Assembly: GCF_021028995.1 (NCBI RefSeq)
Contig: NZ_JAJJZG010000024.1
Coordinates: 1-39,046 of the forward strand
Direction of reading: 5' to 3'
DNA: 39,046 nucleotides
Origin: Halobacterium sp. KA-4
GTDB taxonomy: Archaea; Halobacteriota; Halobacteria; Halobacteriales; Halobacteriaceae
The first letter of the stretch is position 1. Every line of letters starts with the position of its first letter. The notes beneath the pieces are model-generated. The model saw nothing but the letters and a program-made list of their open reading frames with translations, did not search any database and had not been told where the DNA came from. The translations under genes were made by a program, and so were the position numbers. Of the stretch, positions 34,227 through 39,046 are shown one piece after another.

Positions 34227-34904
34227 CTACCGGTGAGGAGTCCGCTCGCCCTCCGTCGAATCTGGCGCGTCGAAGACGTCGCCGACGAGGTTGCCGTGGC
34301 CGCGGCGCAGTCGCTTCGAGAGCGCCTGCTGGCTGATGTCGAGTTCATCTGCGACTTCGTCCATCGTTGCCTCCGGTGGGACTTCGTAGAATCCCGCGTC
34401 GAGGGCGGCGACCAGTGCCTCACGCTGCTTCTCAGTGACGCCGAATCGGTCGGGCGCGCCCGCCTCACCCGAGCGGTACACGCGCTGGACCTCGTAGTTC
34501 ACGTCGTGGCGCTCGCAGTACGTCGAGAACGCGGGCAGTTGGTCCGGGTCCTCGAACCGGATGCGGAGCTCCCAGCCACCGCGTTGGCCGGTCGCGGAGA
34601 CGAGTGTCCCACCCGTCTCGACGACCGCGTTCGCTACCGACTCGACCCTGCCCGGCCACTCGGCGCGGTAGAGCGCTTCTGCCTCGTGGGTGTCTAGGCG
34701 AGTCGCCTCGTCGATTGTCGGGTCGTCCGTGACCGCCGACTCGAAGGCGTCGAGGTCGCCGTGCACCCAGAAGTACGGCGTGAGCCGGCCATCCGGGTGC
34801 GCGACGACGCGCTCGATTTCCACCACGGTCTCGGGGGCAGCCGCGAGCGTCTCGGCCATCGCGACGGAGTTGGCCGGCACCGCGACTTCCGCGACGACAC
34901 TCAT
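34227..34904 (-). CDS. HTH_10 transcription regulator (bacterio-opsin-activator type)
   Basis: The 225-residue protein has an N-terminal ligand-like domain of about 150 residues and a C-terminal HTH_10 DNA-binding domain. The latter runs from FGVTEKQREALVAALDAGFY through DEVADELDISQQALSKRLRR, both signatures of this haloarchaeal family. It is divergent from the acetyl-CoA synthetase gene across 100 bases that hold the acs TATA box, so control of acs and of itself is plausible. The start is MSVVAEVAV; an extension of 66 codons overlaps acs and lacks family features. Confidence 0.85.
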   Translation of the reverse strand: MSVVAEVAVPANSVAMAETLAAAPETVVEIERVVAHPDGRLTPYFWVHGDLDAFESAVTDDPTIDEATRLDTHEAEALYRAEWPGRVESVANAVVETGGTLVSATGQRGGWELRIRFEDPDQLPAFSTYCERHDVNYEVQRVYRSGEAGAPDRFGVTEKQREALVAALDAGFYEVPPEATMDEVADELDISQQALSKRLRRGHGNLVGDVFDAPDSTEGERTPHR

Positions 34905-34973
34905 ACGCGCCTTCGGACCCCCGGCGTAGTAAGTTTGCAGGCCGCTTCTCGCGGAGTTGCTGGAGGGAGAACG

Positions 34974-34979
34974 TTTATT
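34974..34979 (+). promoter_or_regulatory. TATA box of acetyl-CoA synthetase gene
   Basis: TTTATT is centred about 28 bases before the ATG at 35005, the spacing of leaderless haloarchaeal genes. It stands out in GC-rich sequence. A purine-rich GGAGGGAGAA directly upstream could be the BRE or part of an operator for the divergent HTH_10 regulator. Confidence 0.55.
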
Positions 34980-35004
34980 CGCACTAGGCCGTAGGTTCCA
35001 ATCG

Positions 35005-36960
35005 ATGCCGGGCGATGAGTCGTGGCACATTGGGGGCGCCCGTGAGTCCGTGGAGCCACCGGCGTCGTTCGTCGACCAAGCGAACGTTACCGACCCCGAC
35101 ATTCGCGAGCAGTTCGAACGCGAGTGGCCGGCGTGCTGGGCGCGCGCCGCCGACCTTCTCGACTGGAACGACGACTACGACGCCGTGCTCGGTGGAGACG
35201 GCCCACCGTTCCGTTGGTTCGATGGCGGGACCCTGAATGCCAGTTACAACTGCATCGACCGCCACCTCGACGACCGGAAGAACCAGGTCGCGTTGACGTG
35301 GGAGGGTCGCCTCGGCGAGTCCCGGTCGTACTCGTATCTCGACCTCTACCGGGAGGTCAACGAGTTCGCAGCCGCACTCCGCGAATTGGGTGTCGAGGAG
35401 GAGGACGTCGTCACGCTGTACATGCCCGTCGTCCCCGAACTCCCCATCGCGATGCTGGCGTGTGCACGCATCGGCGCGCCGCACTCGGTCGTCTTTGCTG
35501 GCTTCTCCGCGGACGCGCTCGCGATGCGCATGGACGACGCCAACTCGGAGTATCTGGTGACCTGCGACGGCTACTATCGACGTGGTGCACCGGTCCACCA
35601 GAAGAACAAGGCCGACAACGCCGCCATCGCGCTCGACGACGGCATCGAAGCGACCGTCGTCGTCGACCGGCTCGGGGACGACACGCCACTGGCCGACGAT
35701 GAGTACGATTACGGCGACCTCGTCACCGAACACCGCGGCGAGACTGTCGACCCCGTACCCCGCGACGCGACCGACCAGCTGTTCCTCATCTACACGTCCG
35801 GGACCACAGGCGAACCCACCGGCGTTCGCCACACGACGGGCGGCTATCTCGCGCACGCGGCGTGGACGAGCCACGCCGTTCTGGACATTCGGCCCGAGGA
35901 CACGCACTGGTGTTCGGCGGACATCGGCTGGATTACCGGGCACTCCTACACCGTCTACGGGCCACTGGCGCTCGGGTCAACGACGATGCTCTACGAGGGG
36001 ACACCCGACCACCCCGAGAAGGACCGCGTCTGGGAGCTCATCGAGCGCAACGCGGTCGACGTCTTCTACACCGCGCCGACCGCTATTCGCGCGTTCATGA
36101 AGTGGGGCGAACAACACCCGGACAGCCACGACCTCTCCAGCCTCCGCCTTTTGGGGACGGTCGGCGAACCCATCAATCCGCGCGCGTGGAAATGGTACCA
36201 CGAACACATCGGGAACGGCGAGTGCCCGGTGGTGGACACGTGGTGGCAGACCGAGACTGGCGGCATGATGGTCACCACACTCCCGGGAATCGACGAGATG
36301 AAGCCGGGCTCGGCGGGCCTCCCGCTCCCCGGTATCGACGCAAAGGTCGTCGACGGCAACGGCGAACCCGTCGAGCCGGGCGACACCGGCTACCTCGTCG
36401 TCACGAGCCCATGGCCGGGGATGCCGCTGTCGATGGTCGAGAACGACAGTTGGTTCACGGACCAAGCGCCCGTCTTCCCGGACCTCTCCAACCACGACTG
36501 GGCGTACTTCACGGAGGACGGCGCAACCGTCGACGAGGACGGCTACATCACGTTGCTCGGGCGCGTGGACGACGTTATCAACGTCTCCGGCCACCGTTTC
36601 GGGACGATGGAAATCGAATCCGCCATCGCCGACGTCGAGGGTGTCGCCGAAGCCGCCGTCGTCAGCGGTCCCCACGACCTCAAGGGGCAGGCCGTTTACG
36701 CGTACGTCAGCGCCGCCGAGGACACCGACGAGGACGCGCTCCGGGAGCGCATCGCCGACGCCGTCGACGCTGCCATCGGCCCCATCGCCGTCCCGGACGT
36801 GGTCGTGTTCACACCCGAACTCCCGAAGACGCGCTCCGGGAAGGTGATGCGCCGCCTCCTCGAAGACATCGCCAACGACGACGATCTCGGTGACACCAGT
36901 GCGCTCCGCAACCCCGAGGTCGTCGGCGAATTGGAGTCGGCGCTCGGCGAGCGCGACTGA
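35005..36960 (+). CDS. acs: Acetyl-CoA synthetase, AMP-forming
   Basis: The enzyme activates acetate to acetyl-CoA through acetyl-AMP. The 651-residue length is normal. The nucleotide loop reads YTSGTTGEPTGV, where most members have SGSTGKPKG, so two lysines are missing from the loop. The adenylate motif WWQTETGG, the hinge region VDDVINVSGHRFGT and the C-terminal catalytic lysine in LPKTRSGKVMRR (about 613) are intact. A related acyl-CoA substrate such as propionate cannot be excluded. The start at 35005 fits the TATA box. HTH_10-type regulator genes lie on both sides. Confidence 0.92.
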   Translation: MPGDESWHIGGARESVEPPASFVDQANVTDPDIREQFEREWPACWARAADLLDWNDDYDAVLGGDGPPFRWFDGGTLNASYNCIDRHLDDRKNQVALTWEGRLGESRSYSYLDLYREVNEFAAALRELGVEEEDVVTLYMPVVPELPIAMLACARIGAPHSVVFAGFSADALAMRMDDANSEYLVTCDGYYRRGAPVHQKNKADNAAIALDDGIEATVVVDRLGDDTPLADDEYDYGDLVTEHRGETVDPVPRDATDQLFLIYTSGTTGEPTGVRHTTGGYLAHAAWTSHAVLDIRPEDTHWCSADIGWITGHSYTVYGPLALGSTTMLYEGTPDHPEKDRVWELIERNAVDVFYTAPTAIRAFMKWGEQHPDSHDLSSLRLLGTVGEPINPRAWKWYHEHIGNGECPVVDTWWQTETGGMMVTTLPGIDEMKPGSAGLPLPGIDAKVVDGNGEPVEPGDTGYLVVTSPWPGMPLSMVENDSWFTDQAPVFPDLSNHDWAYFTEDGATVDEDGYITLLGRVDDVINVSGHRFGTMEIESAIADVEGVAEAAVVSGPHDLKGQAVYAYVSAAEDTDEDALRERIADAVDAAIGPIAVPDVVVFTPELPKTRSGKVMRRLLEDIANDDDLGDTSALRNPEVVGELESALGERD

Positions 36961-37089
36961 CCAGCGTTTCGTCTTTCAAAGATAACTCGAAACCCTTCCC
37001 GTGGGAATATACGCGATAGTTGGCTATTGCGATGTTCTCGGTTGCTCCTCGAAAGATTCTTACTTCGCGTCTGTGATAGTCCACGAAAC

Positions 37090-38889
37090 ATGAGCGAGGG
37101 TGTCGCGGCGGCGCTGTCCGAGGCGTCCTACGAGCGGCTCCGCCGAGCCACGGAGACCCACCGCGAGGAACTCGTCATCCGGCTCGCCGGTGAAGCCGGG
37201 CTCCGACCCGCCGAAATCGCTCGCGTCCGGCCCGTAGACGTCACGACACACGACCACGCCGACGTCGCTCACAACTTCCTCAGCGTCCGCGACGAGGAGG
37301 GTGAGGTCGTTCGCGAGGCCTACCTGCCCGCAGATGTCGAACACGACCTCCGCCAGTACGCCCGCACGGTCGGTGTCGACGCCGAGGAACGCGTGGTATC
37401 GGTGTCGCCGCGGCGCGTCCAGATGCTCATCGCCGACGTCGGCGACCGCGCGGCCGACCGCACCGATGACGACGCGCTCCGGGACGTCTCCTCGCGGACG
37501 CTCCGCCGGTTCTTCGCCCGCCAGCTCCTCGACGAGGGGGTCGACCCGCGTGCAGTGGCGGCCGTCGGCGGCTGGGAGCGCCTCGCCAGCCTCGACCCGT
37601 TCGTCGACGACGTCGACCGCGGCGACGTCGCCGCAGCGTTCGCTGGCACCGACTTCGCGCCCGCGCGCCAGCCCGCTGAAGCCCCCGCAGAGCCGGACTT
37701 GCACTTCGACGCCGCGTTCGACCGCGTGCGTGCCGTCGGAGACGCCCTCGCCGAGACGTCCACGCGGGACGGCGTCGAGCAGCGAACCTGCGAGGCGCTC
37801 GTCAGGGGTGACACCTACGAGTTCGCGTGGATTGCGCGGTACAGCGGCGGGACACTACACGCCGCGACGCACGCAGGAGCGGCCGACGCGATGGTCGGCG
37901 TGGCCGCTGACGACGGTGCTATCGCGGATACCCTCACTTCCGGGGAGGTACGGGTCACGAACAACGTCCATGATGACGCGGGGTTCGCCGACTGGCGCGC
38001 GCACGCTAACGAGGCCGGGTTCGGCGCTGCCGCTACGGTGCCCGTCGACGACGGCGATACGACCTACGGCGTGCTCGGTGTTGGCGTCGACGGGACCATC
38101 AGCGACCGAGAACGCGATCTGCTCGCGGACCTCGGCCAGCGGGTCGGACGCACCGTTACGGTCGTCCAGCAGCGCCAACTCCTGTTGGCGGATACGGTGC
38201 TCGAATTGGCGTTCGAGACGACCGGCGACGAGTCGTTTTTCGCCGCTGCGGCCGCCAAACACGGCTGTACGTTCGAGTTGGACGGCGTCGTCCCTGGCGA
38301 GGAGGGCGCGCTCCTGTACTTCGTGCGGCTCTCGGGCGCGTCCGCGGAGACAGTACTGTCGTGGGCGGCCGACCAGCCAGCGGTCGCGGGCGGTCGCCTC
38401 GTCCGGGATTACGGTGACGAGTCGCTGCTCGAACTCGCTGTCACGGGCGCGGATATTGCGAAAACGCTGACTGACCGCGGCGCGTCGGTCCGGGAGGTGA
38501 CGGCGACGCCCGCCGAGCAGCGCGTCGTCGTCGACGTCACAACGGACACGGACGTCCGGTCGCTGGTTGCGGCCGTCACTGACGTGTTCCCCGACACGGA
38601 ACTCGTCTCGAAACGCGAGCGCGACCGTCCTGACGAGACCTCTGCGGCGTTCCGCGCGTCCCTGCACGAGTCGCTGACGGACAAACAGGCGTCCGTGCTG
38701 CGCGCGGCCTACCACGCAGGCTACTTCGAGTGGCCGCGTGGCAGTACCGCCGAGGAACTCGCGGACGCCATCGGCATCACGTCCCCTACGCTCCACAACC
38801 ACCTGCGGCGCGCCCAGCAGAAGCTCCTCACGGCGTTCTTCGCGGAGGACGACGTCGGACGCGGCGGCGTCGAGTGGCCCGACGACTGA
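37090..38889 (+). CDS. Recombinase-like + GAF + BAT + HTH_10 regulator
   Basis: The 599-residue protein has four parts. Residues 15-185 look like the catalytic domain of a tyrosine recombinase: EAGLRPAEIARVRPVDV (R39 in the place of the first catalytic arginine) and SSRTLRRFFARQLLDEG (R139 kept). The catalytic histidine is R136 and no tyrosine lies after GGWERLASLDPF, so it should not recombine DNA. A GAF-like sensor follows (about 205-365), then a BAT-type domain (about 380-520). HTH_10 closes the protein, with TDKQASVLRAAYHAGYFEWP and TAEELADAIGITSPTLHNHL. The start is MSEGVAAAL. It follows acs by 129 bases. The insertion sequence lies 31 bases after the stop. Confidence 0.8.
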   Translation: MSEGVAAALSEASYERLRRATETHREELVIRLAGEAGLRPAEIARVRPVDVTTHDHADVAHNFLSVRDEEGEVVREAYLPADVEHDLRQYARTVGVDAEERVVSVSPRRVQMLIADVGDRAADRTDDDALRDVSSRTLRRFFARQLLDEGVDPRAVAAVGGWERLASLDPFVDDVDRGDVAAAFAGTDFAPARQPAEAPAEPDLHFDAAFDRVRAVGDALAETSTRDGVEQRTCEALVRGDTYEFAWIARYSGGTLHAATHAGAADAMVGVAADDGAIADTLTSGEVRVTNNVHDDAGFADWRAHANEAGFGAAATVPVDDGDTTYGVLGVGVDGTISDRERDLLADLGQRVGRTVTVVQQRQLLLADTVLELAFETTGDESFFAAAAAKHGCTFELDGVVPGEEGALLYFVRLSGASAETVLSWAADQPAVAGGRLVRDYGDESLLELAVTGADIAKTLTDRGASVREVTATPAEQRVVVDVTTDTDVRSLVAAVTDVFPDTELVSKRERDRPDETSAAFRASLHESLTDKQASVLRAAYHAGYFEWPRGSTAEELADAIGITSPTLHNHLRRAQQKLLTAFFAEDDVGRGGVEWPDD

Positions 38890-38919
38890 CTTGCGTCGCC
38901 ACGTTGCTAACTATTTAGT

Positions 38920-39046
38920 GAGGGTGTCATAGAACGAGTAACACACCAAAGAGCAGGGTGAACGCTGAGGTGGGATGAGTTCAGCGACCCTGCAAGATGA
39001 TCCTTCGGTAGAGTCCTTCTTCAATGTCGCGGAGACGGAGACGCTA
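38920..39046 (+). mobile_element. Insertion sequence 5' end (right copy, partial)
   Basis: The exact inverted copy of bases 1-127, entered from the other flank. The terminus GAGGGTGTCATAG starts 31 bases after the regulator's stop codon, so no gene is broken here, although the 3' end of that transcript may be. The element's transposase would be read rightward, out of the window. Confidence 0.85.
38975..39046 (+). CDS. Transposase N-terminus (partial, runs off window)
   Basis: Twenty-four codons from the ATG at 38975 to the end of the window, identical to the minus-strand fragment at 1-72. The frame is still open at the edge. Family not assigned from so short a piece. Confidence 0.7.
   Translation, partial: MSSATLQDDPSVESFFNVAETETL

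Follow-up and report, generated by a model that had tools for sequence, protein, structure and literature searches.

Why does a haloarchaeal regulator that stands beside genes of acetate activation begin with the catalytic domain of a tyrosine recombinase, and what could such a domain still do there? The question was raised by a contig of Halobacterium sp. KA-4 (39,046 nucleotides, referred to as the window), in which an open reading frame with its ATG at 37090 and its stop codon at 38887-38889 encodes such a protein. A Phage_integrase domain was matched at residues 9-167 (Pfam: 31.6 bits, cut-off 27.1, E 1.7e-7), and the rest of the protein consists of a GAF domain followed by BAT and HTH_10 in tandem, which is the arrangement of Bat-type HTH_10 regulators (Table 1). 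Within 16 aligned homologues Phage_integrase was matched in 15, GAF_2 in 14 and both BAT and HTH_10 in all, HTH_10 being the best-conserved region of the fused protein. An earlier sequence-only reading had described an N-terminal recombinase part fused to GAF, BAT and HTH_10, and the coordinates and Pfam domains agree with it.

Table 1. Positions of the features of the window that are discussed in the text.
Feature	Position	Strand	Remarks
acs1, AMP-forming acetyl-CoA synthetase (acetate--CoA ligase)	35005..36960	+	directly upstream of the regulator; ATG likely 35005
Dyad site 1, GTTTCG-N16-CGAAAC	36966..36993		just 3' of the acs1 stop
Dyad site 2, ACTTCG-N16-CGAAAC	37062..37089		abuts the regulator ATG
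Fused regulator gene, 599 aa	37090..38889	+	degenerate tyrosine-recombinase domain + GAF + BAT + HTH_10
Degenerate tyrosine-recombinase catalytic domain, residues 9-185	37114..37644	+	R39, R139 and W162 kept
GAF_2 sensor domain, residues 225-354	37762..38151	+	Pfam
BAT domain, residues 368-523	38191..38658	+	Pfam
HTH_10 DNA-binding domain, residues 529-580	38674..38829	+	Pfam
Insertion sequence, left end	38917..39046	+	between regulator and acs2; transposase start codon 38975; contig ends inside

The assignment of the N-terminal domain was examined by profile and by structure prediction, a prediction lacking the recombinase fold being what would have spoken against the sequence-only reading. 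In the PDB the N-domain profile matched XerA of P. abyssi (4a8e, E 8e-15) and of T. acidophilum (5hxy, E 4e-8), and Cre weakly. An AlphaFold2 model of residues 1-204, built with 16 homologues, reached a mean pLDDT of 84, and Foldseek ranked XerA and Cre as its top PDB folds; the TM-scores of about 0.6 and the large rmsd arise because these targets are two-domain proteins. Profile and fold thus both identify a tyrosine-recombinase catalytic domain. It begins at about residue 9, and no Pfam match to an N-terminal core-binding (SAM-like) domain was found in the fused protein, a domain which the stand-alone relatives described below lack as well. The full-length model was weaker (pLDDT 76, pTM 0.48), and the relative placement of the domains is therefore left unclaimed. 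The helix bearing F171 was poorly modelled, which counts against the explanation favoured below.

The active site was then followed in an alignment of 93 N domains, of which 90 belong to fused homologues and three to stand-alone proteins. The landmarks that had been noticed around R39 and R139 proved to be ArgI and ArgII, and the His/Trp position is occupied by W162, a Trp as in Cre. The catalytic His and Tyr, previously described as lost, are indeed absent, R136 replacing the His of the HxxR motif and F171 the Tyr; the loss also extends to the Lys, which is missing from the beta2-3 turn, and spares the His/Trp position. Of the set R-K-H-R-(H/W)-Y that marks an active enzyme, the protein of the window hence lacks K, H and Y. 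ArgII is kept in all 90 fused homologues and ArgI and Trp by a large majority, whereas His occurs in two and Lys is practically absent. Homologues with an intact Tyr, which would have spoken against a degenerate domain, do exist (about 43 of 90), yet none of the 90 carries the complete set, and they do not restore catalysis for this reason. To judge from the alignment, the residues that hold the phosphate (ArgI, ArgII, Trp) are kept and those that cut (Lys, His, Tyr) are lost. The fused protein thus shares with XerA and Cre the fold and both arginines, and with Cre the Trp, but differs from them in lacking the core-binding domain, Lys, His and Tyr. The view of a degenerate tyrosine recombinase within a BAT-type regulator is borne out by sequence, by fold and by which residues were lost and which were kept.

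Two explanations can be weighed against this pattern. Proteins combining Phage_integrase, BAT and HTH_10, some of them with GAF_2, were listed as the archaeal recombinase family fam30-04 by Badel et al. (2021; PMC8371274), and the fused protein shares this combination, its membership being a matter of domain content, since the clustering was not rerun. Taken at face value, this family name would make the protein a still active recombinase or topoisomerase with a non-standard active site, and the Tyr of about half the homologues and the nearly universal ArgI, ArgII and Trp could be quoted in its favour. We find this barely credible, as Lys and His are missing, Phe stands for Tyr in the window and no member has the full set; moreover, the gene keeps its place in a metabolic locus throughout the class, and the tree of the domain largely follows the families. 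The domain might instead be a decaying passenger without function, and the many different ways in which active-site residues were lost do resemble relaxed constraint on catalysis. This is very improbable, too: the fused domain occurs in most haloarchaeal genera sampled, 22 columns are invariant in the 16-sequence alignment and dN/dS within the genus is 0.2-0.37. These ratios are comparable to those of GAF or lower, and judged by them the N domain is under purifying selection that is comparable to that on GAF or stronger.

N-domain matches were found in 238 of the 292 sampled Halobacteria genomes, a count that takes in stand-alone integrases; among the matches listed, most lie in open frames of more than 540 aa. 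About 70 haloarchaeal loci had enough flanking sequence to be judged, and in nearly every one the regulator gene is framed by two acs genes that read in the same direction as itself; genes for DUF4212 and ActP follow within the available flank in 51 of 69 loci, the order being acs1 - regulator - acs2 - DUF4212 - actP - uspA (start codons of the homologues were inferred by alignment). Plasmid copies in Haloferax, Halocatena and Haladaptatus are arranged as acs - regulator - acs - DUF4212 - sodium/acetate symporter. In twenty genomes that lack the domain, the corresponding place is occupied by one acs only, and an adjacent BAT regulator was not found there. Beside acs1 of KA-4, an HTH_10-like protein with a weak match to the HTH region of the regulator is encoded divergently (window 34227-35102, minus strand). 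In H. volcanii the regulator would presumably be HVO_A0157, which we place between acs8 and acs7 by its gene number; by the same token we take HVO_0895 to lie between acs1 and acs2. No mention of HVO_A0157 or HVO_0895 was found in the literature searched. The H. volcanii genes acs7-HVO_A0155-ssf-uspA are transcribed on acetate and not on glucose or casamino acids (PMC7746861), and they correspond to the acs2-side acetate operon.

In KA-4 itself the locus is split by an insertion sequence. The genes acs2-DUF4212-actP-uspA are located on a second contig (C10), following the other side of the insertion sequence at the contig end. We infer that this element connects the two contig ends, because they share its ends and because ATTTAGTGA, which the two ends flank, is duplicated. 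On this assembly of the sequences the acetate locus is present in KA-4 and the insertion leaves the acs2 promoter element intact. Position 38975, considered as a start of acs2, was rejected; it is the transposase start, acs2 being on C10. Copies of one insertion sequence bound both ends of the window's contig (1-130 and 38917-39046). A second conserved element, of the GCTAACTGTTTAGTGA type, is located just 3' of the regulator stop in Halobacterium and relatives (window 38902-38921), and it was into this element that the KA-4 insertion sequence landed.

The gap between acs1 and the regulator contains 28-bp dyads of the form TTTCG-N15/16-CGAAA (consensus RTTTCG-N16-CGAAAY). Site 1 of the window is the sole perfect 12-base copy in the KA-4 genome; site 2, its centre 96 bp away, has one mismatch in the TTTCG-N16-CGAAA core. 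A perfect dyad was present in 73 of 88 distinct acs1-regulator gaps, compared to 0.3 in dinucleotide-preserving shuffles, and a dyad with at most one mismatch in 85 of 88; because the loci are related by descent, these counts make them look more independent than they are, and the controls (shuffles and negative genomes) guard against chance and not against a common history. Exactly two dyads were found in 48 of 88 gaps, while nearly half of the loci have only a single one (at most one mismatch), which is to be counted against the explanation favoured below. No dyad was detected in 74 regulator-acs2 gaps, and no perfect dyad in 180 kb around acs in genomes without the regulator gene. Dyads that had appeared upstream of acs1 were rejected as an indexing artefact in short loci, essentially none being present in loci with full flanks.

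A whole-genome search of 145 genomes with the 12-base dyad yielded about 100 places, compared to one for a reversed control pattern, and this blind search recovered the regulator promoter in genomes outside the motif definition. In 17 regions inspected, the pairs in one genus of Haloferacaceae (probably Halorubrum) were all at the fused regulator, and isolated matches were mostly in coding sequence; a stricter pattern with the ATG attached gave only two matches, both of them the regulator promoter. One GTTTCG-N16-CGAAAC copy (locus L193, 2204-2231) lies about 150 bp upstream of a gene for HVO_2928_N plus HTH_10, and its core recurs in several genomes of the same genus. As the link between protein and dyad is positional only, another conserved haloarchaeal factor could occupy the dyads while the fused protein acts elsewhere. 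We regard this as improbable, for dyads are missing at acs of genomes without the gene, accompany the gene onto plasmids, extend over most of the haloarchaeal families sampled and have few perfect copies elsewhere in the genome.

Which end of the protein would recognise the dyads can be approached through the closest relatives found for the N domain. These are stand-alone "site-specific integrases" encoded on plasmids; they measure about 200 aa, are about 34-39% identical to the window protein and have an intact R-K-H-R-W-Y set. They form one clade beside the fused forms; a tree rooted with distant XerA did not separate a sister position from one nested in the fused forms. Upstream of their genes we found 27-bp dyads in which two arms of 10 bp enclose a 7-bp spacer, e.g., GTGCCGACTT-ATCAGAG-AAGTCGGCAC, centred about 97, 106, 118 or 124 bp upstream of the ATG; 34 genes contained 20 dyads at 8 or more matches of 10, compared to 4.9 in shuffles. 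Genes of the Halococcus type have a second copy 105-106 bp downstream of the first. The arm sequences differ from those of the regulator dyads, and of the two sites the one close to the start codon is weak. Since these relatives carry dyads without possessing an HTH_10, recognition by the recombinase domain in both groups is probably the simplest reading. Viral relatives of the stand-alone integrase were not found in IMG/VR. The literature searched yielded no study on the recombination sites of small haloarchaeal integrases consisting of the catalytic domain only. In the KA-4 genome a full-size integrase gene adjoins a small stand-alone one (contig C27, 10200-12488).

The main competitor of this assignment is that the HTH_10 end binds the dyads and that the recombinase domain was kept merely for oligomerisation or signalling, the regulator still controlling the acetate locus. 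HTH_10 is the best-conserved part of the protein, and HTH dimers commonly have dyads in the promoters of their own genes. In addition, an unrelated HTH_10 gene that encodes no recombinase domain is preceded by one dyad, at a distance of about 150 bp, in some Haloferacaceae genomes, which would fit binding by HTH_10 and counts against the explanation we favour. We nevertheless consider HTH_10 binding rather unlikely. Equally long dyads occur at comparable distances upstream of integrase genes whose products have no HTH_10, ArgII is invariant despite lost catalysis and a length of 27-28 bp fits recombinase core sites; the targets of XerA and Cre are palindromic and about 28-34 bp long, to which the regulator dyads may be likened. 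In addition, a different motif is present at acs2: a GGCATAATTAGCGCC-type motif just before the TATA box was found in the regulator-acs2 gap of 48 of 81 loci, compared to 1.1 in shuffles, and in none of 88 acs1-regulator gaps, two of 67 sites at acs1 and one of 20 acs of genomes without the gene. We propose this motif as a candidate HTH_10 site.

The centres of paired dyads are mainly 77, 87, 95-99, 106-111, 115-119, 130 and 140-142 bp apart. The best period of these spacings is 10.5 bp (R 0.65, 30 genus-level values), placing the two operators in helical phase; the nominal Rayleigh p of about 3e-6 is too small, because the genera are related and shared ancestry inflates the statistic, and in some subsets periods close to 10.5 bp fit almost equally well. 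Looping by a protein needs two operators on the same face of the helix, and spacings on a 10.5-bp ladder are as expected for it. The evenly spaced pair suggests that the protein still binds DNA pairwise and perhaps bends it into a small loop. The earlier proposal of two DNA-binding ends that bridge or loop DNA thereby gains indirect support from the phased dyads, the dyads of the stand-alone genes and the separate motif at acs2, while the bridging itself stays a supposition.

On balance, and with modest confidence, we favour a domesticated, catalytically dead recombinase that serves as a two-ended, probably self-regulating regulator of the acetate locus. The recombinase domain, as dimers, would most likely bind both 28-bp dyads of the regulator promoter; as these lie on one face of the helix, the dimers could meet as in a recombinase synapse and form a loop of about 85-120 bp, which may shut off or tune transcription of the regulator. 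The HTH_10 end would most likely act on the separate motif that immediately precedes the acs2 core promoter and switch on the acetate operon, with GAF and BAT as the presumed input of a putative ligand. A more specific picture, which is possible and which we advance tentatively, with more doubt than conviction, is that of a frozen synapse reused as a switch: the dead ends would pair the phased operators in a loop of about 100 bp, the HTH_10 ends would sit at the acetate operon, and core sites of an ancestral plasmid integrase would have become operators.

The architecture itself was already known. The accessible text of Badel et al. (PMC8371274) classes fam30-04 by domain content only; loss of active-site residues, an acs locus, operators and a function are not mentioned in it. 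Bat-like proteins in which the N-terminal domain is replaced (REC, PAS or other) were described by Galperin et al. (2018; PMC5847659); such Bat/HTH_10 regulators of haloarchaea share the GAF-BAT-HTH_10 output half but differ from the fused protein, which has a dead recombinase at its N-terminus and an acetate-activation locus as its probable target. The stand-alone integrases (e.g., of Halobacterium salinarum PHS1 and Haloarcula pNG200) resemble the N domain in sequence and also have dyads upstream of the gene, but they possess the full R-K-H-R-W-Y set and are devoid of sensor and HTH parts. In Crypton-derived DUF3504 and the yeast proteins Gcr1/Cbf2, tyrosine recombinases were likewise domesticated as parts of transcription regulators and lost catalysis (Kojima and Jurka, 2011; PMC3212892); these proteins are, however, eukaryotic, and animal DUF3504 lost ArgII, which is invariant in the fused haloarchaeal proteins. 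The literature searched yielded no published function for the Phage_integrase-BAT-HTH_10 family and no prokaryotic tyrosine recombinase domesticated in a transcription regulator, and no regulator of acetate-specific acs/actP induction in haloarchaea was found reported. New are the acetate locus, the 28-bp dyads with their phasing, the dyads of the stand-alone genes and the acs2 motif; the sequence-only reading had contained neither the acetate locus nor the operators, nor the conservation across the family. If the proposed explanation is true, the fused proteins would represent an ancient, class-wide archaeal case of domestication, with operators and with catalytically intact relatives for comparison. 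The fused protein is a concrete candidate for the regulator of acetate-specific acs/actP induction in haloarchaea, and the transition from recombinase to transcription factor would become testable in a model organism, Haloferax.
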